Of a stretch of 58,477 nt of DNA, positions 3,001 through 35,048 are shown piece after piece. Source of the DNA: an uncultured Bacteroidota bacterium (GTDB lineage: Bacteria > Bacteroidota > Bacteroidia > AKYH767-A > OLB10); assembly GCA_900696575.1 (NCBI GenBank), contig CAADHD010000031.1:1-58477 (forward strand), written 5' to 3'. The translations under genes and the position numbers were made by a program. A model generated the notes under the pieces. The model worked only from the letters and a program-made list of their open reading frames with translations. It did no database searches and was not told the origin of the DNA. Positions within the stretch are counted from its first letter, which is position 1; every line of letters starts with the position of its first letter.

Positions 3001-6000
3001 GTACAACTCCGGTGTTTTCAGGAATTGATATAGCTGCGCTACTATCAGCGACAGGTGTCAATTGTTCTATAACAACCTTATTTCAGAGCGGAGTGGATTA
3101 CAATGCCGATCCGCAACTGCTTGGAGATGGAATCATCGGCAATTCAACTCCTAACGGTGGCGCACATTTTATAACTCTCGATGCTTCAGCACCTTCGAAT
3201 AACCCTTTATTCCTGCCGCCTTATTCGCTTACCAAATTGGTGTTTGAGAAAACATCACCTCAATGCACCATAGCAGTTGCAGACAATGAATTATGCGATG
3301 GCGAATCAACAGGAGTGTATATTTACGGAAGGGAAGCTTCTGCATCATCTCTTACACTTACCAGCAGCGGATGCACCTGTTCGGCATCAACCAACAGTTC
3401 TTCGCATGCTGATGAATATGTAACCGTAGTTACCTGCTCCAATTCATCAACCACAACAGCAGGTACCTGTACCCTTAGTATAGGCGGAGCAACAGCTGTT
3501 ATTACTGTTCACCCGGCATTGCCGACTGTAAATATCACAGCAGCACAGACTCCTGCGCCTGGCGGAACAATTTATATGCCCGGCACCATTACACTTACCG
3601 CCACGGCAACCGGAGGTACGGTTGATTATTACATCTGGACACGCGATCATAATGCCGAAGGAATTATCACCCCGTTTGGAAATCCAACTGTTGTTAATGA
3701 TGTAAACGCAACCGAAACCTTCACCTTGCATTATTCCAACAATCTGAGCAACCGCCAATGCTGGGGTAAAGCTGAAATTAATGTGCCTGTTTGCAATGCT
3801 GATGCAGGACCTGACCGTAAAATCTGTGCAAACCAGGCTGGAGATAATGCCCTCATAGGAACCACTTCTGTGACAGGACTAAGTTATTTGTGGTCAACTT
3901 CAGCTACCGCCTCGCAAATAACCGTGAAGCCCAGTTCAACGACTATTTATACAGTTACTGTATATGACGGCAATGGCTGCTTGGCAACCGATGAGGTTTC
4001 TGTAAATGTGTTAACAGATTGCTGCACGGGAGGTATTGGCGATTATGTAAGCAGAGGCGAAAGCACCCTGCGGGACCTGCGGGATTATTTCAGCGCTAAT
4101 TCGCCACCTTCTCCAGGCAGCTTTAATTGTGCCAACGGTATTTGCACTCTTGACTTAGATGGCACAGGGTTAAATATTTTCCTGAACGGAGATGTTACCA
4201 TCAATAATTTAAGTCCCAACGGGAACGATCCGCAGTTTATCTTCCGGAACTGCAATATTTTTTTCAACCCCAATGCAAAAATCATAACCTCAGCGGCAAA
4301 TAAGGATCTGACATTTGAGGCATGTTCCCTTGCGCGTTGCGGTACGGATTTATGGGATGGCATTTATATGAGCAACCCAAGCGATGACTTATTCATAACA
4401 TCGGGGACAACCGTTGAAGGCTGCGCGAATTGTTTTGTAACTTCGCGTGAAACAAAGGTTGCCGTGACCGATGCCGCCTTCACCACCTTCCACCGCGCCT
4501 TAGTTATTAACGACTATGATGACCCGGCTGATGTAATCATAACAGGAAACACCTTTACCGGAAGCAACAACTTACCGGCTCCTTACAGCGGGCAGCGCAG
4601 CGCATGCATCATCTGCATTGACGATGTGAAAAGCATTACCATTGGCGATATAAGCGGAGCTGCCAACATCCTGAGCACAGCAGATAAAGGCATCCTTGCC
4701 GTGAACAGCGATGTGAATATTTACAACAACACGTTCAGCGGTTTTCCGCAGGTAAACATGACCGATATGTATGACGGCACAGCCATTGAATGCTCCAACG
4801 ATTTTACATTTGATTTACGGCTGTGGCCCAGGAATAATATTGTTGTGCAGGGCAATACGTTTGACGGCAGCACGGATGAAATCCATTACGGCATTAAAAC
4901 CACCAATGTAAATACATACATTGGAGTTGACCAGAATGCCAGCGAAGCCAACACCATGGACTATGTGAGAAACGGAATTTACGCTGCTGGCGGATGGGCA
5001 AAGACAACTGAAGTTGCAGGCAACATCATCACTAACACCCAAACAGGCATACGCACATGGAGCCACCGCGACAACATCAGCATCCGTAACAACACCGTAA
5101 CTGTAAGTGACGGAGGCAATGCGGCTGTAGAGATAGACGGAGCGTGGAGCGAAAGCGGTCTTTCGGAAATAAAAGGAAACAGCATCACCACGGAAGGCAT
5201 GTTTGGTGTGCTGACACGCAGCGCATACGCTGCCATTAAAGAGAATACCATAGCCATGAATCATAACAGTGCAGCAACGCCTGTTTATGGCATCAGGGCC
5301 GAAGCCACGCCTTTTGGCAAAATAGGCTGCAACAGCATACAGGGAAACGGAACCACAACAATTGCCAACAAAACCGCCATTTCATGCACCCAAAGCCAGC
5401 AGCTTACTGTGCAGTGCAACACCACGGATGAAACCGGCATCGGGCTGGAATTTTTAGCCGACTGTGATAACAGCGCCATACAGGGCAATGAAATGAAATA
5501 CCATGACTACGGCATTTACATAGGCGATGGAGGCATTCCCACCGGAGGAGTGATAGGACCGCAGACAGTGAATGATGTTGGCGAATCGCGCGGAAACAAA
5601 TACCAGGGAGAAAATGACAGCGGTGTTTTTCCGGGTGGAGATGCGACTTTTACATATAATTCCGATCCTCCAGTTCCTTTTTGGACAGAACCAAATGCAA
5701 CTGGCACTCCTACAATTTATTATACTCCCCAATCTAATGGTACAAATCAACCAGGAAATCAAATAACTCCTGTACCACCTATTGGCAATCCCCCCATTTT
5801 TGACTGCGCCACCAACAACAACTGCGCAGATTTACGCATCAGCCATCCGGGGTCTTCCTACGGATGGCTTGATGCAGCCGAAGCCATTGCAACGGACAGC
5901 GTACCCGGAAGTGATGATATGGAAGCTGCTTTGAAATGGAGCCTGAAACGGAACCTGTACATGGCGCTTCTGAAAGACAGCACGCTTCGTGACAGCAGCG

Positions 6001-6683: not shown

Positions 6684-8194
6684 GAAATAAAGCGGCTGTT
6701 TTACTTTTTCTGATGCTGTGTTACGGAACTGCACCGGCTCAGTTTCGTGACAAAGAATGGCAGATCAGCCTGAGCGGTTATTCCATAAACCCTGCCATAC
6801 CAACCAACGCTTTATATGTTACTCCACTTGGAGTTGATACTTTTTCGCTGATAAGGCCTTTGTCTTTTACTAATGATAATCATGGAATTTGTGATACCAG
6901 TGGCAACCTGCTTTTTTATACGAACGGAATCTGGATTGCCAACAGGCTTCATGATACGTTATGGAACAGTGTGAATTTTAATCCGGGGTATGCGAGTACT
7001 AATTATTCTCCCTGGGGAATGCCTTACATGCAGTATGTTTTGATATTACCTAACAGCGACAGTTCGCATTTGTATTACATATTCAATCAATGCGCTGATA
7101 CTTATCTTCCCATCAATATCAGGGTGCCTTCACATCTTGGTTATAGTGTGATTGATATGAACCTTGACGGAGGGTTAGGGGGTATTACAGCCATAAAGGA
7201 CAGCACTTTATTTTCCGATACATTAAATAACGGTCACATGACAGCCTGCAAACATGGCAACGGGCGCGACTGGTGGGTGATAACACACAAGTATAATTCG
7301 AACATCAGGCATAAAATATTGGTTACACCGCAGGGACCACAATTACATTCCACGCAGGCAATTGGTCAAAATACTCCTGATATACTGGACTGGTATGGGC
7401 AAGCCTGTTTTTCACCTGACGGGAGCAAATATGCTTTAGTCTTAGCCCGCACCCAGTCGGTAGAGCTTTTTGATTTTGACCGTTGCACAGGAGAGTTATC
7501 CAATCCGCGTTTTGTTTTTATTAACGATTCTACCCCGGGTTTTTTGGGATGTTCTTTTTCTCCTGATAGCAGGTTTCTTTATGCAAGCGATGAGCGATAT
7601 TGTTACCAGTTTGATACATTTTCTCCAAACATTGACAGCAGTAAACAACTTGTTGCGGTGTATGACGGGTATGTTGCAACATTCCAAACCAAATTTTTTT
7701 ATCACCAACTTGCTGCTGATGGTAAAATTTTGATAAGCACTGCAGGAGGCGACAGTGTATTACACAGGATTAACCAACCGGATAGCATAGGTACTGCATG
7801 TGATTTTCAACAACACTGTATTAAATTATCCTACTATGCAAATTTATCATTAAACAACTTCCCCAGCTACAACCTCGGTCCGTTAACAGGCAGTGTATGT
7901 GATACTCTGACATCAGTAAATGAAACAATAAAAAATACTCCATTACAATTAAAAGTCTTTCCCAACCCTGTAACAACTCAGGAATTCAACATAGAATACA
8001 CCCTTGAGCAAAACCAACCGGGCTTTCTTGAGATCAGGGAGATAACCGGCAAAGCGGTTTACACGATACGCCTGCCGCAATGGAGCACACGGCAAACGCT
8101 GCGCCTGCCCAAACTTGCCAGCGGGGTGTATTTAGTTACCCTGCAAAGCGGCAGTAAAAGGGCAATGAGTAAATTTGTGAAAATGGAGGAATGA
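6680..8194 (+). CDS. T9SS type A sorting-domain protein, beta-propeller-like
   Basis: 504 aa with a signal peptide ending near APAQ (residue 20). The body carries recurring strands of the type GNLLFYTNG, FSPDGSKYAL and FSPDSRFLYAS, which resemble WD40/YncE-like propeller blades in secreted Bacteroidota proteins. The last 75 residues (VFPNPVTTQEFN to the end) are a type A sorting domain, so the protein should cross the outer membrane by the type IX system and be attached to the surface or released. It starts in the ATGA overlap of the giant gene upstream and overlaps the next small gene the same way, suggesting translational coupling. No catalytic motif is visible; a binding or adhesion role is inferred. 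Confidence 0.85.
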   Translation: MRNKAAVLLFLMLCYGTAPAQFRDKEWQISLSGYSINPAIPTNALYVTPLGVDTFSLIRPLSFTNDNHGICDTSGNLLFYTNGIWIANRLHDTLWNSVNFNPGYASTNYSPWGMPYMQYVLILPNSDSSHLYYIFNQCADTYLPINIRVPSHLGYSVIDMNLDGGLGGITAIKDSTLFSDTLNNGHMTACKHGNGRDWWVITHKYNSNIRHKILVTPQGPQLHSTQAIGQNTPDILDWYGQACFSPDGSKYALVLARTQSVELFDFDRCTGELSNPRFVFINDSTPGFLGCSFSPDSRFLYASDERYCYQFDTFSPNIDSSKQLVAVYDGYVATFQTKFFYHQLAADGKILISTAGGDSVLHRINQPDSIGTACDFQQHCIKLSYYANLSLNNFPSYNLGPLTGSVCDTLTSVNETIKNTPLQLKVFPNPVTTQEFNIEYTLEQNQPGFLEIREITGKAVYTIRLPQWSTRQTLRLPKLASGVYLVTLQSGSKRAMSKFVKMEE

Positions 8195-10803: not shown

Positions 10804-11673
10804 TTATCTGATCCTGTAATTCCTGTATTCGCCAATGCGCCAGCCGGTAAGTCTTTCAATTTTCATCAGCAACCGGTTTTTAAAAGATAGTTTTTTCTCC
10901 TGGGCATAGACTGTAACCTGCCAGTTCGCACTTTCAATCCGTTGTTTCATTACGGCTGGATGAGTACCCGTAAAAACAGAAAGCGAATCAATACCTGAGT
11001 AGTCAAACTCTGCAGCATCGCCAACATTTTTTTTCATCCATTGATCGTCATGCCACAACCGGTGAAACGATTGCTGCTTAAGCTGCTGCTTATCGGGCGG
11101 TTTAACCCATCCGTAATGAAAAATGCGGGCATCAACCTGTTTTACGCAAAGTTTCTTCCCGTCTTTTCTGAACCCTTGTGCATCGCGCCACGACCGGATT
11201 TGCCTGTCATTTCGGATGATGCGTATTTCTTTTCTGTACCATCTGCGCGTATCGCCATAAAACCGGTACGTTCCGTAAAAGTGAATGTAGTGAAACAGCA
11301 ATCCATCAATGCTTTTATCGTACAGGTTATTTTTCATGGCGCTATGTATGAATTCATAATCGTCTTCATGAACTACTTCATCAGCCTGCAGGTAAAAAGC
11401 CCAATTGGCATTGGGTGAAATATGGTCAAGCGCTTTGTTGGTTTCAACGGCAAGCACCTTTCCGCCTTCGCGCAGCGAATCATCCCATACGCTGTCAATG
11501 ATTTTTATTTTTTGGGATGAAATGTTTTCAATGGCTGAACGGGTTCCGTCTTCCGAATTTCCGCAGACAACAATCAGCTCATCCACTAAGGGAAGCAGGG
11601 AGTTGATGGATTCAATAAAAGGATAATCGAGTTTTATTCCGTTACGGACAAACGTAAATCCGCTGACCAGCAT
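10804..11673 (-). CDS. Family 2-like glycosyltransferase
   Basis: 289 aa. The N-terminus (SGFTFVRNGIKLDYPFIESI, then DELIVVCGNSEDGTRSAIENI) is a GT-A nucleotide-sugar-binding fold start. YLQADEVVHEDDYE near residue 95 supplies the acidic DxD-like site (QADE). The remainder is rich in aromatic and basic residues. No membrane helices are evident, so it is probably a cytoplasmic or peripheral enzyme adding a sugar to a surface glycan; donor and acceptor cannot be told. Its start codon directly abuts the purB stop (no gap), so the two are co-transcribed with purB first. Confidence 0.8.
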   Translation of the reverse strand: MLVSGFTFVRNGIKLDYPFIESINSLLPLVDELIVVCGNSEDGTRSAIENISSQKIKIIDSVWDDSLREGGKVLAVETNKALDHISPNANWAFYLQADEVVHEDDYEFIHSAMKNNLYDKSIDGLLFHYIHFYGTYRFYGDTRRWYRKEIRIIRNDRQIRSWRDAQGFRKDGKKLCVKQVDARIFHYGWVKPPDKQQLKQQSFHRLWHDDQWMKKNVGDAAEFDYSGIDSLSVFTGTHPAVMKQRIESANWQVTVYAQEKKLSFKNRLLMKIERLTGWRIGEYRNYRIR

Positions 11674-13035
11674 TTATTTTTTCGGCTTGTAAGGAATACC
11701 GGTATAGTTGAAAGGCGTAATGGCTTTCAGTTCTTTCTTTACGGATGCTTTTACATCAAGCGAATCAATGAAAGCCTGAATTTCTTTTTGCGTTATTTTT
11801 TTGTTCTTGCGGGTTAAAGCTTTCAGAGCATTGTACGGGTCGGGATAGTTTTCTCGCCTTAAAACCGTTTGAATGGCTTCGGCCGTAACTGCCCAGTTAT
11901 TATCCATATCAAACGTAATGGTATCGGTATCAGGAGTAACTTTTCCCAATCCTTTGATAAGCGATTTAAGGGCAATGACTGTATGTGCAAACGGAACGCC
12001 AGCATTGCGCAGTACGCTCGAATCGGTAAGGTCGCGCTGCAATCGTGATATGGGAAGTTTGGAAGAAAGAAATTCAAAAACGGCATTAGCCATTCCGAAA
12101 TTGGCTTCTGCATTTTCAAAATCAATCGGGTTCACTTTATGAGGCATTGCGGAAGAACCAACCTCTCCTTCAATCACTTCCTGTCTGAAATAATTCATGG
12201 AGATATAGCTCCACATATCGCGGCTGAAATCAATCAGGATATTGTTGATGCGTTTCAGGTTATCACACAGCGCGGCAAAATGATCGTAATGTTCAATTTG
12301 AGTAGTAGGATAGGAGCGCTGCAAACCGAGCGATTTTAAAAATGATTCTGCAAATCGGTTCCAGTCAATTTCCGGATATGCAGCATAATGTGCATTGAAG
12401 TTGCCGGTAGCTCCTCCGAACTTTCCGGTATTGGGAATTTGGTTCAGCAGCTTTATCTGTTCATCAATACGCACCGAAAAAACATACATCTCTTTACCAA
12501 GACAGGTGGGCGAAGCAGGCTGTCCATGCGTATGGGCAAGCATGGCAATGTTTTTCCATGATTCAGCTTTCTGTTCCAGTTTCTTTTTAAAATCATTAAG
12601 CAACGGCAAATAAATTTTCTGCATGGCCTCTTTCACCATCAACGGAATGGCCGTGTTGTTCATATCCTGTGAAGTCAATCCGAAATGGATAAACTCTTTG
12701 AGATTTTCAAACCCCGTTTCATCAAATTTTTCACGGATGAAATACTCTACTGCTTTAACATCGTGATTGGTGGTCTGCTCAATCTGTTTAATACGCCTTA
12801 CATCGTTTTCATCAAAATCAAGATAAATGTTGCGCAGCGATTTAATTTTTTTCGAATCAAAACCTTTGAGTTGAGAAATGGGCAATTTGGTTAAAGCAAT
12901 AAAATATTCTGCTTCAACCTTTACGCGGTATTTCATCAATGCGGCTTCCGAAAAAAAATCAACCAGCTCTTTGCATTTATCGAAATACCTTCCGTCAACA
13001 GGGCTGATGGCATTCAGTGTATTCAGTTCGGTCAT
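11674..13035 (-). CDS. purB: Adenylosuccinate lyase
   Basis: 453 aa. It removes fumarate from SAICAR and from adenylosuccinate, two steps of purine synthesis. The fumarase/aspartase superfamily signature GSSAMPHKVNPIDFENAE is present about two thirds into the protein, with the flexible catalytic Ser loop. THGQPASPTCLGKE (catalytic His region) and LTSQDMNNTA are also visible. The length and N-terminus (LNAISPVDGRYFDKCKEL) fit. A promoter lies just upstream. It is the first gene of a two-gene unit with the glycosyltransferase. Confidence 0.96.
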   Translation of the reverse strand: MTELNTLNAISPVDGRYFDKCKELVDFFSEAALMKYRVKVEAEYFIALTKLPISQLKGFDSKKIKSLRNIYLDFDENDVRRIKQIEQTTNHDVKAVEYFIREKFDETGFENLKEFIHFGLTSQDMNNTAIPLMVKEAMQKIYLPLLNDFKKKLEQKAESWKNIAMLAHTHGQPASPTCLGKEMYVFSVRIDEQIKLLNQIPNTGKFGGATGNFNAHYAAYPEIDWNRFAESFLKSLGLQRSYPTTQIEHYDHFAALCDNLKRINNILIDFSRDMWSYISMNYFRQEVIEGEVGSSAMPHKVNPIDFENAEANFGMANAVFEFLSSKLPISRLQRDLTDSSVLRNAGVPFAHTVIALKSLIKGLGKVTPDTDTITFDMDNNWAVTAEAIQTVLRRENYPDPYNALKALTRKNKKITQKEIQAFIDSLDVKASVKKELKAITPFNYTGIPYKPKK

Positions 13036-26366: not shown

Positions 26367-26723
26367 ATGAAACTTTTCATAAACATTTTATCCTTTGCTT
26401 TTATATCCATCATCAATGCCTCTGATGGTTATGCACAAAATTATTTGGCGGCAAAAAAGGAAACCGTTACTTTTGTGATTGATCTTTCAAGTGCAAAGGT
26501 CAATAGTAACATCAAAAATGATTTGTCAGCGCTTCATGGAATTGAATTGAGCGGATATTGTGAAAGGCCTGATCTGAAACAGGCATTGATGATTTTAAAT
26601 ATTGACCGAACTATACACAGCGACAACAACCCGATCGGTTTTTTTCTTGAGAATGCCGGAGTTTCAGCAAAACCGGTTAGCGACAATAGCACCAACCAGT
26701 TGCAACAGTTATTTTGTCAATAA
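26367..26723 (+). CDS. Small exported HMA-fold-like protein lacking CxxC (unit 1)
   Basis: 118 aa with a signal peptide ending at GYAQN (about residue 25). The mature part follows the strand-helix-strand-strand-helix-strand order of a heavy-metal-associated domain: VTFVIDLSS, helix KVNSNIKNDLSAL, HGIELSGYCE, LMILNIDR, helix, VSAKPV. The metal-binding MxCxxC loop is replaced by LSSAKV, so metal binding of the usual kind is unlikely. It resembles the 119-aa protein encoded at 30382 in layout and length, and each precedes a giant T9SS protein. The gene below starts 26 nt after its stop. The function is unknown; a partner or chaperone role for the surface protein is speculation. Confidence 0.65.
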   Translation: MKLFINILSFAFISIINASDGYAQNYLAAKKETVTFVIDLSSAKVNSNIKNDLSALHGIELSGYCERPDLKQALMILNIDRTIHSDNNPIGFFLENAGVSAKPVSDNSTNQLQQLFCQ

Positions 26724-26749
26724 AACTTTTTTAAAATTCTATACTTTGA

Positions 26750-29700
26750 ATGCGTAAGCCAGTAGCTTTTGTAACGGCTGTTTTGCCCTTTATGCTTTTA
26801 GGGAATATCCTTCATGCACAGATTCTGCTTGATGGTAATGCCGCTGGCGGATTTGAATCCTCAGCCACCTTTGCTGGCAATGGATGGGCTTCCGTAAATC
26901 ATACCTCTAATCAATGGTATGTAGGAGCTACAGGCGCAAACAGCGGAGCACGCGGAGCCTATATTTCAAACAGCGGAGGTTCAGGAAATAATTACACGAA
27001 CACCACTGCACAGGTATCGCATTTTTACCGTGATATTACCTTTCCCTCAACCGGAACAGCAGTGATGACTTTCAACTGGAAAGCTTATGGAGAAAGTTTG
27101 CTCGGAAATCCGCTGGATTACATCAGCGTATGTGCAGTGCCCAATACAATTACGCCTGTTGCCGGAAGTGTTGTTGGAAGCGGGTTGCTCGGAAATTTTA
27201 ACTTGCAGAACAGTTGGCAGAATGCTACTGTAGTTTTTTGCGGCAGCAGCGGAAACACTATCCGTGTTGTTTTTTCATGGATTAACGATGCCTCAGGCGG
27301 AAGCAATCCAGCAGCAGCCATTGACAACATTCATATTGTTTTGAATGCCGGAGGTATTCCTGCCAATGACCTTCCGTGTAATGCCACTTTCCTGCCCATA
27401 AATTTACCAATGAGCGGAAACAACATAGGTGCAGGCAACTGCAATGAACCTGCTGCTCCTGCCTGCGGTAACAATTGGAATAATGCAGTGTGGTATAAAT
27501 TTATTGCTCCGGCTTCAGGATGTGTAAAAATTAAAACCATGCTCGGAACATTAACCAATACACAGGTTGCAGCATATTCAGGTTCGTGTTCAGGTTTGAC
27601 ATTGATCTCAGGATCCAATTGTAATGATGACATCACTCCCTGCGGAGTAAGCGGCTATGCTTATCGCCACTCCATGCTTGAGTTAAGCGGCCTTACGGCA
27701 GGCAATATGTATCATGTTGCTGTTGATGGATATGGATTTGAAACCGGAAGTTTTTCAATCATCATTTATGATGCCTGTACAGCAGCTCAATTGCCGGCTA
27801 TTCCTGGCCAGGACTGCGAATTGCCGTTTCAGGTATGTACTACAAGAGTTGATGTTCCGAATCCCGGATACAGCGGTTTTGGAAACCGTTGCGATTTTTC
27901 ATCTGGCTCAAACTGTTTGCTTCAGGGCGAAAAAGGTGCCGTGTGGTACCGTATTGCTATTACCGGAAGCGGATTTCTGGCTTTTGATATCCTTCCGAAT
28001 GATTATACCAGTGGCTGCACCGGTGGCGGAGAAACCGATTATGATTTTGCACTCTATAAAATAGGCGGAGCAGGAGCTACTTCTGCTTGCGGTGCATTAG
28101 GAGTGCCCCTCAGATGTAATTATAATTTTCTTGGGGTTACAGGGTTGTATCCGAACGGAAGCGGAAACCCGGCTTATGGCGGATCATGCTGGGACAATTC
28201 GTACGAAGATACTGTAGGCGTTCAGATTGGAGATGTGTTTCTTTTATGTATCAGTAATTGGGATGTAACCAACTCAGGCTTCAGTTTGCGAATTAACCCT
28301 GCTTCACCGGTTTCATCTGTAGTTCCACCCGGAGGTACAGTTGTATGGACAGGTTCAACCAGCACCGATTGGTTTAATCCTGAGAATTGGGGCGGATGTC
28401 AGATTCCGAATTGCAGATACAATGCGTTTATTCCCCCCAATTTGCCCCGTTATCCGTATATCAATGCTGCCGGTGCAAGTGTAAGAACAATCACAATAAG
28501 CCCCGGTGCCGGTTTAAGTCTGAGTGGCAGCTTTCAATTAATGGTGTGCAACGATTTTGTAAATAATGGAGCAATTAATTTTTCTGCAGGATCAACTGTG
28601 CATTTTGAAGATACTGCCGTAACAGCACCATTAAATATCAATCATAATCAAAAGCTGAATGGCTATCTTACCGGAGCAAACTCGTTAGGAAATGTAGTTA
28701 CCTCAAAACCGGTGGGCTACTATGTTCAGGCACTCCAGGATTTTGATACAAAAGGAAATTTTACGGTTAATGGCGGAAGTTTTGGTGGAGAGTTCAGGGC
28801 TGCAGGTATGTATCAGAAAACAGCAGGAAATTTTACTATTGATCCCACCGGCCCCAATCCGGCAACATATCAGGCTTCGGCAACACTTGAATTTACCGGT
28901 GTAAATCAACAGTACAAAAACAGCGGTTTATTGAATAACGTTGTCATGAATCAATTACCCGGTGGCAGCTTAATGCTTACCGATCATGGCCTGGCTTTGC
29001 CCTGGATGATTTTGGGAACTGCCGGTGTGCTGTCACTTCAAAATGGAATTATAAATACAAACGGAAGCCTGGTTGAAGTGAGAAACCGTGCTTTTAATTC
29101 TGTTGAGCCCGGCAATCTGAACAGTTATATTAACGGATATCTCAGAAAATTCCTCAATCAATCAGGCGGTACCGGCACTTATGAATTTCCTGTTGGGACT
29201 TCTATAAAAGGATATCAGCGGTTGTCGTTAGAAGTTACCTCTGCATTTCCGGCCACGGTCAATTTCATTACGGCAAATTTTGAAAACCTGCTACCTGCAA
29301 ACAATACAGCTCTGGGAAGTGAATGTAGCGTAACCTGGCATCAGGCTCCTGCTTCACCGCTTGACAACGGGTTCTGGAAATTGCAGCCGGCTCCTGCTTC
29401 TGCATTTACAGCCGGCACTTTTAACCCTGTTCTCTGGAACCGCAGTTTTACAAATGCCCAGTTTGGTTTTACAGTGCAATATAACCGTTCAGGAAACAAC
29501 ATACCTGCACAATGGCAATTAAACCCACCGGCTGGAAGCACTTCCTGTGCAAATTTTCCAGTTACTGCCGTTAAGCGAGTCGGCATGAGTGCTGCTACTG
29601 TTTTTGGCAATGCGGGCGAAGTTTATTTCAGTACGGCTCAAGGATTAAATCCGTTGCCGGTTGAACTGGTTTATTTCAGAGGTAAATGTTTGAGTGCTAT

Positions 29701-30229
29701 GCGTAAGGTGGAACTTCAGTGGCAGACCGCATCTGAATGGAATAATGATTTTTTTGAAATTCAAAGATCTTGCATTAATGAACCTTTTAAAGTAGCAGGT
29801 CGGGTGAATGGGCATGGTACTACATCAGCTTCAAACCATTATTATTTTACAGATGATCTTCTTTCAGATTGCAATGAAATTTACTACAGGTTAAGGCAGG
29901 TTGATTTTGATGGGTCAACAGAGATTAGTTCTGTTATTAAAATTCTTTGTTCAAGCAATGAAACTACACCATCACTTTTCCCAAATCCTTTTTATGAATC
30001 TTCTAAATTGTTCTTGAATGGAATGGAAGGCAGCCGGCTAATCATTCAAATTTATCATGCAGATAATGCAGAACTTATTTTTGAAAAGGTGCTAAGTGAA
30101 TCGGAAATTGTCAGCGAAATGGTTTTGAAGCCGCAATATTTTGGAAATTCTTCAGGAGTTTATTTGATAAAAATAATTTCCCAAAAAACAGTTTATACGC
30201 TTAAAGCGGTAAAGATCAGCAAGCAATAA
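26750..30229 (+). CDS. Giant T9SS surface protein (unit 1, 1159 aa)
   Basis: The signal peptide ends near LHAQ (residue 24). Domains seen: a beta jelly-roll-like region (25-195, from DGNAAGGFESSATF); a Cys-rich PPC-like region (about 205-340) with NAVWYKFIAPASGCVKIKT; a second such region (about 352-520) opening GQDCELPFQVC; WTGSTSTDWFNPENWGGC near 532, leading into a long beta-solenoid; then LPVELVYFRGK (fibronectin-like segment) and a C-terminal sorting domain (LFPNPFYESSK onward). It should be exported by the type IX system and sit on the surface, probably as an adhesin or matrix protein. No catalytic residues are visible. It is clearly homologous over most of its length to the 1304-aa protein that follows. 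Confidence 0.85.
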   Translation: MRKPVAFVTAVLPFMLLGNILHAQILLDGNAAGGFESSATFAGNGWASVNHTSNQWYVGATGANSGARGAYISNSGGSGNNYTNTTAQVSHFYRDITFPSTGTAVMTFNWKAYGESLLGNPLDYISVCAVPNTITPVAGSVVGSGLLGNFNLQNSWQNATVVFCGSSGNTIRVVFSWINDASGGSNPAAAIDNIHIVLNAGGIPANDLPCNATFLPINLPMSGNNIGAGNCNEPAAPACGNNWNNAVWYKFIAPASGCVKIKTMLGTLTNTQVAAYSGSCSGLTLISGSNCNDDITPCGVSGYAYRHSMLELSGLTAGNMYHVAVDGYGFETGSFSIIIYDACTAAQLPAIPGQDCELPFQVCTTRVDVPNPGYSGFGNRCDFSSGSNCLLQGEKGAVWYRIAITGSGFLAFDILPNDYTSGCTGGGETDYDFALYKIGGAGATSACGALGVPLRCNYNFLGVTGLYPNGSGNPAYGGSCWDNSYEDTVGVQIGDVFLLCISNWDVTNSGFSLRINPASPVSSVVPPGGTVVWTGSTSTDWFNPENWGGCQIPNCRYNAFIPPNLPRYPYINAAGASVRTITISPGAGLSLSGSFQLMVCNDFVNNGAINFSAGSTVHFEDTAVTAPLNINHNQKLNGYLTGANSLGNVVTSKPVGYYVQALQDFDTKGNFTVNGGSFGGEFRAAGMYQKTAGNFTIDPTGPNPATYQASATLEFTGVNQQYKNSGLLNNVVMNQLPGGSLMLTDHGLALPWMILGTAGVLSLQNGIINTNGSLVEVRNRAFNSVEPGNLNSYINGYLRKFLNQSGGTGTYEFPVGTSIKGYQRLSLEVTSAFPATVNFITANFENLLPANNTALGSECSVTWHQAPASPLDNGFWKLQPAPASAFTAGTFNPVLWNRSFTNAQFGFTVQYNRSGNNIPAQWQLNPPAGSTSCANFPVTAVKRVGMSAATVFGNAGEVYFSTAQGLNPLPVELVYFRGKCLSAMRKVELQWQTASEWNNDFFEIQRSCINEPFKVAGRVNGHGTTSASNHYYFTDDLLSDCNEIYYRLRQVDFDGSTEISSVIKILCSSNETTPSLFPNPFYESSKLFLNGMEGSRLIIQIYHADNAELIFEKVLSESEIVSEMVLKPQYFGNSSGVYLIKIISQKTVYTLKAVKISKQ

Positions 30230-30270
30230 TTTAAATTCTTGCTTAATGAAGACGGGTTTTAACCAAAAAA

Positions 30271-30319
30271 CAGTTTAAATCGTATTAGTGAGCTAATACA
30301 TTCGTCTGATTTTAAACTG
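30271..30319. terminator. Nested hairpin between the two duplicated units
   Basis: An outer stem CAGTTTAAA/TTTAAACTG (9 bp, perfect) encloses an inner hairpin GTATTAG-TGAG-CTAATAC (7 bp, 4-nt loop). Only a weak T-run (TTTTT, 8 nt later) follows. It could be a terminator for the first unit or a structured regulatory site before the second. It is perfectly symmetric, so the strand cannot be assigned. Confidence 0.5.
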
Positions 30320-30346
30320 CAACCTGATTTTTAATGTTTTGAAGCT

Positions 30347-30354
30347 TAGCTTTG
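30347..30354 (+). promoter_or_regulatory. -7 box of the second HMA-like/T9SS unit
   Basis: TAGCTTTG is a perfect TAnnTTTG match, 27 nt before the chosen ATG. It overlaps the TTG that would serve as an alternative start of the small gene, which argues against that start. Confidence 0.45.
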
Positions 30355-30381
30355 CTACAGTTTATTAAACTTAAGAAGATT

Positions 30382-30741
30382 ATGAAGAAAAGATATACCA
30401 GAATTTGCCTAATAACAGTTTTTACTGTTTGCATATTTAATTTTGTTAATGCTCAACATGCTGAAGGAGATTACCGTGAAGCAGTAATCAACATTCCGGG
30501 CCTTGAGTCGGAAAAAACTTATCAGGCAATCGAGAATATTTACAAAAACACATCCGGTGTGGAAATAATGTTGAGATGCAAGCGGGGCGAAATGCTTGTT
30601 TTGAAAATAGATACCCGGATTTATGCGAATACGGATAAGTTACTTGCCAGAATAGCTGATCATAATTTTAAGGCTTCGGTGATGGATGGATTTGACTACA
30701 ACAAAGCAGTGGCTACCTGCAGTGACTTTAAACCTGAATAG
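30382..30741 (+). CDS. Small exported HMA-fold-like protein lacking CxxC (unit 2)
   Basis: 119 aa from the ATG at MKKRYTRICLI, which gives a normal signal peptide ending at NAQH. An earlier in-frame TTG would add ten residues ahead of it. The mature domain aligns well to HMA proteins: AVINIPGLESEKTYQAIENI (here LESEKT stands where MxCxxC binds metal), GVEIMLRCKRGEMLVLKID, and DKLLARIADHNFKASV. Both metal-binding Cys are absent. The same layout is seen in the 118-aa protein at 26367. The giant T9SS gene starts 27 nt downstream. The function is unknown; copper or iron handling seems unlikely without the Cys pair. Confidence 0.7.
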   Translation: MKKRYTRICLITVFTVCIFNFVNAQHAEGDYREAVINIPGLESEKTYQAIENIYKNTSGVEIMLRCKRGEMLVLKIDTRIYANTDKLLARIADHNFKASVMDGFDYNKAVATCSDFKPE

Positions 30742-30768
30742 AAAACTAAACCTCAAAAACAACTCATT

Positions 30769-33700
30769 ATGATGAAGGGGATACTCAAAAATATTTTAGC
30801 TACAGCAATACTATGGAGCTGTTATCAGTTGCCTGCCCAATCGCAATTACTTCTTGATCCAACCGGGGCGGGTGGTTTCGAATTAGGCGGTACCATGGCT
30901 GCCAACGGATGGACAGTGGTCAACGGTGGAACTAATAACTGGTGCGTTGGAGCCCCCGGTGCCAATGCCGGTGCTAATGGTGCGTTTATTTCAAACACCT
31001 CTTGTGGATCTGCTGCCTACAACGTAAATGTTTCGCAGGTTTCTCACTTTTACCGTGATATTGCCTTTCCTGTAGGTCAGGCAACGCTTTCCTTTAACTG
31101 GAGATGTTTCGGTGAAAACGGTTTTGACTGGATGGATGTTTTTCTTTGTCCTACAACAATAAATCCTGTTGCCAATTTTGAATTAGGGGCCGTTTACCGT
31201 TTAAGAAGATTAAATCTTCAAACAGCATGGCAGACTGCAACCATCGTTTTTCCTTGTAATCCTACAGCACAAACACTTCGTTTGGTATTCTCGTGGAAAA
31301 ACGATTTCTCTCTTGGAACCAATCCACCCGGAACGGTTGATAACATCAGTGTGTTCAATAATCCTTTACCAACAAATGGACTTGTCTGCGCCAATGCTGT
31401 GAATATTCCTTCTTTTCCTTTCAGCTTGGTTGGAGAGAGTACAGTTTGTATGAACAATGATTATACAGTAGCTACTCCAGGAATTTGTGCCGGCTCTTTC
31501 ACTACCGGAGAAGATAAGGTCTATGTTTATACCGCAACCGGCCCACAATGCCTGGGGGTTACACTTAATAACACTAACACAGATCAGGTAGGGTTTGCAG
31601 TTTATCAGGGTTGCCCTGGTTCGGGAGGCACATGCATAGGTTGGGCTACGGTTCCTGCCTTAGGCAATTCTATAACCTCAACGATCAACCTGCCGGGAGC
31701 AGGAACTTATTATTTTATAGTTGACGGAATAAGTGCAACTTATGATATCACAATTACATCATTCGGAGCAGGCCCTCCCAATGACAGACCTTGCACGGCT
31801 ACCTTTCTTCCTTTTGGAATATATCTTTCAGGCAATAACACATGTTCCGGTTCGATAGATGAACCTGTAATGCCCGGGGCATGTACACCATGGGGTACTA
31901 TTAATACAGTGTGGTTTAGATTTATTGCGCCCCCATCAGGCTGCGTTAAAATCAAAACTGTTTTAGGAACGCTAACCAATACTATTATCGCTGCTTATAC
32001 TTCAGGAGTTGCGCCTGTAGCCTGTGGATCCGGGGCTTCGCTTACTTACATTTCCTGTAACAATGATGAGCCAACTTGTGGTGGGTTTACACCTCTGTCA
32101 TCCACTTTGACATTGAGTAGCTTATCACCGGGTTTCTCTTATTACATAGTTGTTGATGGAACAAATGCACTTACCGGGTCATTTTCTATTTTAGCGATAG
32201 ATGGCGGGGCAGGTTGTACCAATCAGTTTCCTCCAACTCCAGGACAAGATTGTATTGCTGCCAACCCGGTTTGTTCTAACTCCATTAATGTGCCGAACCC
32301 AGGTTATCAGGGAGTTGGAAATATCTGTGATTTTGGAACGCCTTCTCCTTGCACAGGAGGAACAAGTGGTTGCGGACCTTGTGCAACAACGTGTTTGTGT
32401 TCGGGTGAACGAGGTTCATCATGGTATAGTATTACAATCTGTGCAGCGGGATTTCTGGAATTCTGGATTGTTCCAAATAACTGGCCAGGCCCTCCAAGTA
32501 CCACCGCCACTGATTATGATTTTGCTATTTACGGGCCTAATCCAAATTGTTCCAATTTGACATCTCCGATACGCTGTCATTACAGTGCATTAGGAGTAAC
32601 AGGTGTTTATGGCGCAGCACCGGGCACTGCTCCCCCCGGCTATCCGGGTTTTGGTGGGGCCTTCAGAGATAGAATTGCAGTGAATGCCGGAGAAACTTAC
32701 CTTTTAAATGTGAGCAATTTTGCCATTAATACTTCAGGCTTTACCTTAATTTTTCCTGCCTCTGCTCCTGTATGTTACGGTGTAAATCCGGGGGGAACTA
32801 TTGTCTGGACAGGTTCTGTCAGCACTGATTGGTTCAATACAAACAATTGGGGCGGGTGCCAGATACCTGATTGTTCAAGGAATGCAACAATTCCAAGCTT
32901 TCCTGTCAATCAGCCTGTTGTAAATGCAGCTAATGCCAGTGTTAGAAGTATCTCTGTAACCCCTGGGGCATCACTTACCATTAATACAGGCTTTCAATTA
33001 ATGGTATGCAATGATTTTACAAACAATGGTTCATTTAACGCGCAGCCTAATTCCACTATTTTATTTACAGATACAGCAGTAACAGCTCCGCTCACTAATC
33101 TCCATGATCAAAATATAAATGGAACAGTAACCGGTGCAAGCCGCTTTATGAATGTAACCGTGGATAAACCTACCGGATACCGAGTAATTGCCACTCAAAA
33201 TGTGGATATGGGCGGAAACTTTCTTGTTAATAATACCGGAGGAAGCTTTGATGCTACCGGTATGTATCATCGGGTTGCCGGTGATTTTACCGTCAATTTC
33301 CCAAGCTTTTATTCGCCCGGCTCCGATCTGGAATTCAATGGAACCGCTCAGAATTACTTTAACCGCGGCTCACTGAATAATGTATTGATGAATCAATCAG
33401 CTCCCGGAACACTCACACTACAGAATCATGGCGGTACTTCTGCATGGATGTTAATCGGGGGGTCGGGTAACCTCACCCTCAACTATGGAAGAATATTGAC
33501 CAATGCAACGGCCAATAACAGAGTAGAAGTTCAGAATCGAGCCTTTGGAGCTATTTCACCCGGAAATACAAACAGTTATATCGAGACAAATGGAGTGGCT
33601 GCCAGTGTAGGTCTGAGAAAATACCTTAATCAGACCGGAGCGACCGGCACTTATGAATTTCCGGTTGGCACTTCTGCAAAAGGATATCAAAGACTTTCTT

Positions 33701-34683
33701 TCAACGTAACCACCGGAATGTCGGCCACAGTAAACTATTTTACAGTTCAATTCGATAACACAGTACCCGCCAATAATCTTGGCTTGGGCATCGAATGCGG
33801 ATTTACGTATCACGCTGCACCGGCTACACCGTTGGATAACGGTTTCTGGAGGCTATATCCTACAACTCCCGGAAGTTTCAGTGCCGGTACTTTTACTCCT
33901 ACGCTCTACAATACCGGTTATACCAATGCGCAGTTTGGTTTTACAGCAATGTATAATCGTTCAAATTCAAATACAGCTGCAAACTGGTTAATTAACACAG
34001 GAATTCCGGTTTGCGGTAATCCGGTAACAGCCGTTCAACGAGCAGGGATGAGTATTGCTACTGTATTTCAATCTACATCCAATGCATGGCTTGGCACCGC
34101 TCAGGCGCCTAATCCTTTGCCTGTTGAACTGCTTTCATTTGATGCTTCACCTGCAAAAAACCTTATTAAACTTCGTTGGATAACGGCTTCAGAAAAAGAT
34201 AACAAGGGATTTGAAATTGAAAGAAATAATAACGGCACGGAAGGTTTCCGGCAGATTGGTTTTGTAAATGGAAATGGTACAACAACCTCCTTGAGTGAAT
34301 ATGCTTTTAATGATGTTGAAGTAAGCCCCAATACTACTTACTTCTATCGTTTGAAGCAGGTTGATTATTCAGGATTGTTCGGCTATTCTGAAGTAATAGC
34401 TGCCCGTTTGAATAAAGAAGTAATGCAGTTAACGGTAGTGCCGAATCCTTATCAGCATAATACTAACATCAGCTTTGTGATTAAAGAAGATGCTTTTGTA
34501 AAAATTGATGTCTATAATAGTATCGGCCAGAAAGTAGTTACGCTTCAGAATGCTATGCTTAAGCCGGGAAGCTATCATCATGTATTCAGTGCCCGCAGTT
34601 ATGGATTTTCACATGGTATTTACACAGTTAGAATGATGGTCAACGATGATGTAATTCAGCAGCGAATTATTGAACAAGAATAA
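30769..34683 (+). CDS. Giant T9SS surface protein (unit 2, 1304 aa)
   Basis: Paralogue of the 1159-aa protein upstream, with the same order: signal peptide (ending near AQSQ), jelly-roll-like region (DPTGAGGFELGGTM), PPC-like Cys-rich regions with TVWFRFIAPPSGCVKIKT, GQDCIAANPVCSNS, WTGSVSTDWFNTNNWGGC near 680, a beta-solenoid sharing SFQLMVCNDF-like and DTAVTAPL segments, LPVELLSFDASP and a type A sorting domain (VPNPYQHNTNISF onward, ending in IIEQE). It has an extra domain of about 135 residues (roughly 200-335) that the first copy lacks. It is surface-exposed by inference; adhesin-like with no catalytic motif seen. A strong terminator follows. Confidence 0.85.
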   Translation: MMKGILKNILATAILWSCYQLPAQSQLLLDPTGAGGFELGGTMAANGWTVVNGGTNNWCVGAPGANAGANGAFISNTSCGSAAYNVNVSQVSHFYRDIAFPVGQATLSFNWRCFGENGFDWMDVFLCPTTINPVANFELGAVYRLRRLNLQTAWQTATIVFPCNPTAQTLRLVFSWKNDFSLGTNPPGTVDNISVFNNPLPTNGLVCANAVNIPSFPFSLVGESTVCMNNDYTVATPGICAGSFTTGEDKVYVYTATGPQCLGVTLNNTNTDQVGFAVYQGCPGSGGTCIGWATVPALGNSITSTINLPGAGTYYFIVDGISATYDITITSFGAGPPNDRPCTATFLPFGIYLSGNNTCSGSIDEPVMPGACTPWGTINTVWFRFIAPPSGCVKIKTVLGTLTNTIIAAYTSGVAPVACGSGASLTYISCNNDEPTCGGFTPLSSTLTLSSLSPGFSYYIVVDGTNALTGSFSILAIDGGAGCTNQFPPTPGQDCIAANPVCSNSINVPNPGYQGVGNICDFGTPSPCTGGTSGCGPCATTCLCSGERGSSWYSITICAAGFLEFWIVPNNWPGPPSTTATDYDFAIYGPNPNCSNLTSPIRCHYSALGVTGVYGAAPGTAPPGYPGFGGAFRDRIAVNAGETYLLNVSNFAINTSGFTLIFPASAPVCYGVNPGGTIVWTGSVSTDWFNTNNWGGCQIPDCSRNATIPSFPVNQPVVNAANASVRSISVTPGASLTINTGFQLMVCNDFTNNGSFNAQPNSTILFTDTAVTAPLTNLHDQNINGTVTGASRFMNVTVDKPTGYRVIATQNVDMGGNFLVNNTGGSFDATGMYHRVAGDFTVNFPSFYSPGSDLEFNGTAQNYFNRGSLNNVLMNQSAPGTLTLQNHGGTSAWMLIGGSGNLTLNYGRILTNATANNRVEVQNRAFGAISPGNTNSYIETNGVAASVGLRKYLNQTGATGTYEFPVGTSAKGYQRLSFNVTTGMSATVNYFTVQFDNTVPANNLGLGIECGFTYHAAPATPLDNGFWRLYPTTPGSFSAGTFTPTLYNTGYTNAQFGFTAMYNRSNSNTAANWLINTGIPVCGNPVTAVQRAGMSIATVFQSTSNAWLGTAQAPNPLPVELLSFDASPAKNLIKLRWITASEKDNKGFEIERNNNGTEGFRQIGFVNGNGTTTSLSEYAFNDVEVSPNTTYFYRLKQVDYSGLFGYSEVIAARLNKEVMQLTVVPNPYQHNTNISFVIKEDAFVKIDVYNSIGQKVVTLQNAMLKPGSYHHVFSARSYGFSHGIYTVRMMVNDDVIQQRIIEQE

Positions 34684-34706
34684 ACACGAAGACTGACCCT
34701 TACAAA

Positions 34707-34744
34707 ACAAGAATGCCGCTATCCTATGCGGCATTTTTGTTTTG
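34707..34744 (+). terminator. Intrinsic terminator after the duplicated T9SS units
   Basis: AATGCCGC and GCGGCATT form a perfect 8-bp stem around an 8-nt loop, followed by TTTGTTTT. It lies 23 nt after the stop of the 1304-aa gene and before tRNA-Pro. The symmetric A-rich 5' side makes it weakly bidirectional. Confidence 0.8.
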
Positions 34745-34784: not shown

Positions 34785-34859
34785 CGGGGTGTAGCGAAGC
34801 CAGGTTATCGCGCTACGTTCGGGACGTAGAGACCGGCAGTTCGAATCTGCCCACCCCGA
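34785..34859 (+). tRNA. tRNA-Pro (anticodon CGG)
   Basis: 75 nt fold as a full cloverleaf: acceptor CGGGGTG/CACCCCG (7 bp), D stem GCGA/TCGC, anticodon stem CTACG/CGTAG with loop TTCGGGA (anticodon CGG), a 5-nt variable loop, T stem GGCAG/CTGCC with loop TTCGAAT, and discriminator A. CCA is not encoded (CAA follows), so it must be added after transcription. It reads CCG proline codons. Confidence 0.96.
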
Positions 34860-35048
34860 CAACTTCGGAATAAGAGATTTTGTAAGTTAACATATGGGCT
34901 TACAGCTATAAATCATTTATCACTTAAGAAAATTATCTCCCTCGAATTTTAAATGTAATAAGCTCACTTCTAAATTGTTACAGTACTTTATAGTTAAGAT
35001 AATGTTCGAAAATTGTTAATTTTCAACTGCAAAGGCTTAATGTGAATC
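34860..35048. other. AT-rich spacer between tRNA-Pro and queA
   Basis: No open frame, hairpin with T-run or RNA gene was found here. It is AT-rich and holds the upstream part of the queA promoter region. Confidence 0.4.

Follow-up and report, generated by a model that had tools for sequence, protein, structure and literature searches.

In current descriptions of the type IX secretion system (T9SS), a cargo protein is marked for recognition by its C-terminal domain, and general machinery and carrier barrels handle it. We analysed a 58,477-nt stretch of DNA from an uncultured Bacteroidota bacterium (contig CAADHD010000031.1 of assembly GCA_900696575.1), hereafter the window, which holds two consecutive gene pairs. 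In each of them, a gene for a small exported protein resembling a heavy-metal-associated (HMA) domain (small1 and small2) is followed by one for a giant T9SS protein (giant1 and giant2). The recurrence of such pairs in relatives points to a small protein dedicated to the giant, as its helper or subunit. The T9SS helpers SkpA, PorP/SprF and PorV handle cargo in the envelope, as is proposed here for the small proteins; the PorP/SprF and PorV carriers are outer-membrane proteins, unlike the presumably periplasmic small ones, and to our knowledge none of these helpers has an HMA fold. SkpA is presented as a Skp homologue acting in the translocon (PMC10994853) and SprF and PorG as disulfide-linked helpers, with SprF linked to GldK (PMC12635249); PMC9143113 also concerns envelope proteins that handle T9SS cargo.

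HMA proteins (PF00403; MerP, Atx1/CopZ and the domains of copper ATPases) have in common with the small proteins their fold and a remote sequence relation, and MerP is exported as well. The small proteins differ from them in the loss of the metal-binding CxxC motif, a lysine in the corresponding loop, a distal pair of cysteines and a gene position directly before a T9SS giant. By analogy, the nearest working model for the gene pair may be NapD–NapA: PMC3712460 describes NapD as a small ferredoxin-fold chaperone encoded in the same operon as its client NapA. The small proteins may resemble NapD in a small ferredoxin-type fold and in a gene beside a single client, here a would-be one. NapD, however, acts in the cytoplasm on a Tat signal peptide, and the small proteins carry a Sec-type signal peptide and have a T9SS neighbour. 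The original prediction, made from the sequence of the window, held that a system of this kind had not been described. In searches of open-access literature no account of it surfaced: the titles and abstract starts listed on T9SS chaperones and cargo, HMA proteins and gene pairs named no such partner, and the conserved gene pair carries no name in the literature examined. The two units comprise the following features:

26367–26723, + strand: small1, 118 aa, exported, HMA-like, without CxxC, with two distal cysteines (open reading frame (ORF) calling)
26750–30229, + strand: giant1, 1159-aa T9SS type A cargo, with a choice-of-anchor J match N-terminally (below cut-off), an all-beta model and a sorting domain at its C-terminus
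30382–30741, + strand: small2, 119 aa from ATG, exported, HMA-like, without CxxC
30769–34683, + strand: giant2, 1304-aa T9SS type A cargo, sharing 45% identity with giant1

The ORF calls agree with the plan that had been read from the sequence, namely two tandem units in which an exported protein of about 118 aa is followed by a giant after 26 nt (unit 1) or 27 nt (unit 2), with 152 nt separating the units. As had been noted, the giants share long similar segments (45% identity over 993 columns, and 47% across an N-terminal stretch of 198) and the small proteins are alike in layout more than in residues (25% pairwise identity over 68 residues, 26 bits), yet the latter are recognised as homologues by the profile described below.

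Small proteins with an HMA-like fold

Scanned singly against Pfam and NCBIfam, small1 and small2 gave no match beyond chance. A search with giant2 covered 61 genomes, including that of the window, and 60 of them had a match; small exported ORFs of approximately 105–145 aa stand directly upstream of many of these giants. Thirty such small ORFs, the window's two among them, make up the family profile A1. A profile lacking the genus of the window scored small2 at 50.6 bits and small1 at 28.6 bits, compared to 10.4 bits for the best of 4000 shuffles, and at the sequence level the two are members of one family. They are the sole members in their own genome (family profile, E-value up to 0.01).

Compared with the PDB, A1 found HMA domains of copper ATPases as its top matches, with whole-chain E-values of 1.4e-7 and 3.3e-7 that are sums across several weak repeated domains. 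Further matches were 2ew9 (E 0.0015) and the copper-binding protein 2l3m (E 0.017). The alignment sets the CxxC loop of HMA domains against a loop of the small proteins with a conserved lysine. Of the 30 members scanned singly, one touches the Pfam HMA family PF00403, at an E-value (0.027) that falls short of the gathering cut-off. The AlphaFold2 model of small2 has block-mean predicted local distance difference test scores (pLDDT) of 91–96 over residues 31–110 and presents a beta-alpha-beta-beta-alpha-(beta)-alpha fold. All five Foldseek rows with E < 0.001 were HMA domains (ATP7B with two chains, MerP, a rice HMA protein and a Menkes domain; best E 2.6e-4, TMt 0.78–0.84), and a second structure aligner likewise filled the top of its list with HMA rows (Z up to 9.8). 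On the basis of this model, an HMA fold without a metal site is well supported for small2, and small1 would share the fold through its kinship in the profile. The HMA-like order of strands and helices in the original prediction therefore stands, for small2 by its modelled structure and for small1 by way of the family. Likewise, the sequences LSSAKV and LESEKT, which it had placed at the metal-binding position, do occupy that of the HMA metal loop, both in the family profile against the PDB and in the small2 model.

Conservation was counted over 40 aligned mature sequences (alignment A6), the rows of which are related. The predicted lack of CxxC extends across the alignment, the motif being found in 0 of the 40 members, and the metal-loop position holds lysine in 33 and arginine in four. 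Two cysteines are conserved, one after strand 2 (38/40) and one near the C-terminus (36/40). Both occur together in 36 sequences and are jointly missing from two; the first occurs alone in two and the second in none, an association for which Fisher's p of 0.008 is merely indicative because the rows are related. The simplest reading of this pattern is a disulfide that would staple the C-terminal helix. Both cysteines are absent at their usual places in G010/G014, in G002 and in one pair of G033, where the pairing with a giant is kept. By inspection, the small proteins start with a Sec-type signal peptide. A simple pattern identified a signal peptide end resembling the Q-rule of Bacteroidota, as given in PMC10653852, in 37 of 50 sequences, and a lipobox-like end in one of 50. 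The small protein is probably soluble and periplasmic.

Giants and their pairing with small proteins

The large proteins had been taken for T9SS proteins, and this assignment holds: giant1 and giant2 reach 23.9 and 25.1 bits with the NCBIfam type A sorting domain TIGR04183 (cut-off 23), although both remain below the cut-off of Pfam PF18962, and the genome encodes the T9SS translocon protein SprA (2616 bits, contig C9). The type A sorting domain was found at 1e-3 in 12 of the 15 paired giants of set A2 and also in the giants of L126, L132 and L139; the remaining giants owe the label solely to their similarity to A2. Giant1 is nearly all beta in its model (pLDDT 74), with partial structural matches to PorU, reelin, carbohydrate-binding and FN3 domains. 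An adhesin-like build is at most suggested for giant1, since these matches are partial and the whole-length TM-scores are low. At one locus, L141:3755-10980 in a single-contig genome, the neighbour is of another type: a small protein of the family stands upstream of a type B cargo, in which Pfam identifies SprB repeats and the corresponding sorting domain, and a PorP/SprF gene comes next. PorP/SprF genes are also found nearby in L126, L127 and L160.

Searches with A1 found matches in 27 of 42 genomes from the order (cut-off 0.01) and in 46 of 395 from the class (cut-off 1e-3), and distinct members were classed by their next downstream gene on the same strand. All 29 training rows visible in the loci lie upstream of a giant, having been selected on that ground. 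The independent count leaves aside the rows of the profile itself and any member discovered via a giant (hence L160), and also omits L109 and L086 (contig ends) and L133 (masked stretch) as unassessable. Up to an E-value of 1.1e-8, a threshold chosen after the table was seen, 20 of the 26 assessable members stand directly upstream of a giant; the counts are 17/17 at 1e-12, 18/21 at 1e-9 and 20/29 at 2e-7. Family members discovered through the small protein alone thus mostly adjoin giants, as the prediction required. Five of the 20 giants end at contig ends (L067, L077, L092, L093 and L117, with 75 residues visible in L092), two are shorter (L135, 749 aa; L139, 976 aa), near copies are included, and L141 was counted as adjacent on the Pfam evidence for its neighbour. 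The 20 members span the window's family and eight others (f25, f32, f34, f41, f43, f45, f48 and f56). Overall, adjacency occurs in ten families, two of these from the training set, and the other neighbours vary. The gap between small gene and giant ranges from -59 to +69 nt across 50 pairs (median 18.5).

Weaker A1 matches were mostly ORFs without a downstream giant. The second profile, A6, matched 36 of the 395 class genomes at 1e-3. Four of its six new matches were inspected: L270, L271 and L272 precede large exported ORFs, which run into the locus end, and L274 does not. In a phylum sample at 1e-4, A6 matched just two of 395 genomes (the window's own and a weak unpaired match), so the family looks mainly confined to this class, with the proviso that this fast first-look search may overlook members.

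The same tandem is present in the near relative G001. A tree of giants was built from a 480-aa fragment and retains 44 of 74 giants, 30 without the motif having been dropped. It pairs giant1 with giant1 of G001 (support 100) and giant2 with giant2 of G001 (support 85, not starred), and groups these four giants apart from those of G010/G014. Because each giant of the window joins its counterpart in G001, the tandem probably arose before the split of the two species. The presence or absence of a small gene changes four times on this tree, compared to a mean of 13.3 for shuffled labels, and none of 500 shuffles was as low. Across 44 pairs, distances between small proteins correlate with distances between giants (r = 0.455; best of 2000 random, 0.259); seven of the 51 pairs were dropped, the giant being short or cut or, in L141, unrelated. 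Swapping partners within the 10 two-pair genomes reduced r to 0.361 on average, and 17 of 5000 swaps reached the true value; the true partner was favoured in eight of these genomes and not in two. As far as these sequence comparisons go, each small gene and its giant are inherited as a unit, from which contact between the proteins does not follow.

Escort, subunit or neighbour

The small protein likely has a dedicated role for its giant, judging by the pattern of pairing. We propose, at close to even probability, that it is a cargo-dedicated periplasmic escort or chaperone. Each unit would be a two-gene cassette whose first gene yields a soluble periplasmic HMA-fold protein without a metal site, exported via Sec. 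This protein would bind the giant on its arrival in the periplasm, perhaps by the open face of its beta-sheet or by the rebuilt loop, and would keep it from misfolding up to the moment when the giant is taken by its C-terminal domain into the T9SS translocon. More tentatively, these proteins might constitute an undescribed class of T9SS escorts made of periplasmic HMA domains devoid of a metal site, each dedicated to the adjacent giant and serving type A cargo and, at least once, SprB-type type B cargo. If true, a one-to-one periplasmic partner would add a cargo-specific step to the T9SS pathway, and the HMA fold would have a new use. The pairing also assigns a likely process to dozens of small exported proteins without names.

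Several observations weigh against an escort. Six of the 26 assessable members are not upstream of a giant: L097–L100 lie beside acetyl-CoA synthetase genes (labelled by inspection), and L138 and L140 have Cys-rich tails. The type A sorting domain was absent at 1e-3 from three of the 15 paired giants and from the giant of L128. Among 73 giants with sufficient upstream sequence, 41 have a small gene and 32 do not; whole subfamilies of giants are among those without one. Among giants that reach 1100 bits or more with the giant profile, the share rises to 37 of 41; this limit was set afterwards, and the profile, being built from paired giants, favours a high paired share. In g5, another genus of the window's family, four giants at the same aspS locus (labelled by inspection; L028, L030, L031 and L032) lack a small gene. 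They are 1441–1528 aa long versus 1155–1304 aa for the paired ones, and the one that was compared has an N-terminal extension. In the giant tree they form one long branch inside a group of ten, the rest of which are the paired giants of the window, G001, G010 and G014; the small gene was therefore likely lost in g5 at this locus. The four genomes concerned retain another pair elsewhere (L035, L036, L037 and L039). Furthermore, T9SS cargo is believed to cross in the folded state, which leaves no obvious need for a dedicated chaperone. The parallel with the cytoplasmic NapD is weak (2jsx, rank 49 in the Foldseek search with small2, E 0.025, TMt 0.45), and joint duplication yields correlated trees without binding.

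The main rival to an escort is a co-assembled surface subunit. The small protein would then be a stable part of the mature giant, leaving the periplasm with it or capping it at the surface, with an accessory or ligand-binding function. Conserved adjacency and joint inheritance fit this equally, and the small proteins of the window diverge more than the giants (21% versus 45% identity), as surface parts often do. We nevertheless consider a subunit rather unlikely: the small proteins of the window match no T9SS sorting domain in Pfam or NCBIfam, and no small–giant fusion was found among the profile matches, where those in ORFs longer than 300 aa were weak (E 6e-5 or worse) and, when their ranges were listed, mostly did not reach beyond the profile's first half, which includes the signal peptide. 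It is also conceivable, if improbable, that the two genes are mere neighbours in a co-duplicating mobile cassette, or that the small ORF mainly aids translation of the giant, with no tie at the protein level. The tandem duplication is clear, trees of linked genes correlate without contact and part of the giants have no small gene, but adjacency persists in ten families despite differing other neighbours, and the fold, the loop lysine and the Cys pair are all conserved.

The cysteines raise the question of a thiol helper, which would form or reshuffle disulfides of the giant or link it covalently to envelope parts, as with SprF and GldK. They are present in 38/40 and 36/40 rows, mostly present or absent jointly, the giants contain several invariant cysteines, and PMC12635249 describes disulfide links to the gliding track. 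We hold this to be quite improbable, given that the two cysteines are distant in sequence and form no CxxC, that a structural staple is simpler and that three lineages (G010/G014, G002 and one G033 pair) keep the pairing without either. The HMA fold and the relation to MerP/Atx1-type domains would suit a protein that is still a metal chaperone and loads the giant. The loop residue is lysine or arginine in 37 of 40 sequences, and we give this reading next to no probability; a metal chaperone was rejected on the absence of CxxC from all 40.

Related small genes and flanking signals

Some exported HMA-like proteins form a subfamily divergent to acetyl-CoA synthetase genes (L097:3474-3866, L098:2808-3218, L099:4680-5036, L100:5468-5860 and L101:4959-5336), in which the C-terminal cysteine is absent and no T9SS giant lies nearby. 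Others (L226:5709-6116, L274:1438-1842 and L138:7192-7563) have Cys-rich C-terminal tails, a loop without CxxC and no adjoining giants. A second kind of small ORF, exported and HMA-like in layout by eye, stands 14–34 nt before more distant giants:

L163:4611-5063 and 11520-11930; L164:1922-2329: second kind of small ORF, layout by eye
L174:2911-3303, 4673-5014 and 6881-7303; L277:1471-1902: second kind of small ORF

A profile of this kind identified one new member, L277, which has a T9SS-like ORF 19 nt downstream. As profile-profile comparison with the main family gave a probability of just 1.4%, we claim no kinship between the two. Finally, genome G295 has a weak profile match (L236:4941-5645), a 234-aa ORF located 2 nt before a 1784-aa ORF that reaches the locus end; neither ORF matched a model in NCBIfam.

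Candidate transcription signals accompany the tandem:

30271–30319, + strand: weak inverted repeat between the units (76-nt stretch, dG -13.6, z -2.4)
30347–30355, + strand: TAnnTTTGC element, candidate -7 box for unit 2, lying 26 nt upstream of the ATG at 30382
34703–34744, + strand: strong hairpin with a T-rich 3' arm (dG -26.2, z -7.4)

The inverted repeat is a possible attenuator or terminator and is not among the terminators listed by the terminator scan. The TAnnTTTGC element, which we take to be the consensus of the Bacteroidota promoter -7 box, is weak evidence for a promoter before small2, because the window holds fewer matches than chance predicts (11 versus 17 expected). An alternative start of small2, a TTG 30 nt upstream, would yield 129 aa but overlaps this candidate element. 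A scan for sigma-70-type promoters listed none inside either small–giant gap, and each small gene is probably co-transcribed with its giant. The hairpin is the likely terminator of unit 2. Right behind this unit lies a tRNA-Pro (CGG) gene at positions 34785–34860, the sole tRNA gene found in the window.

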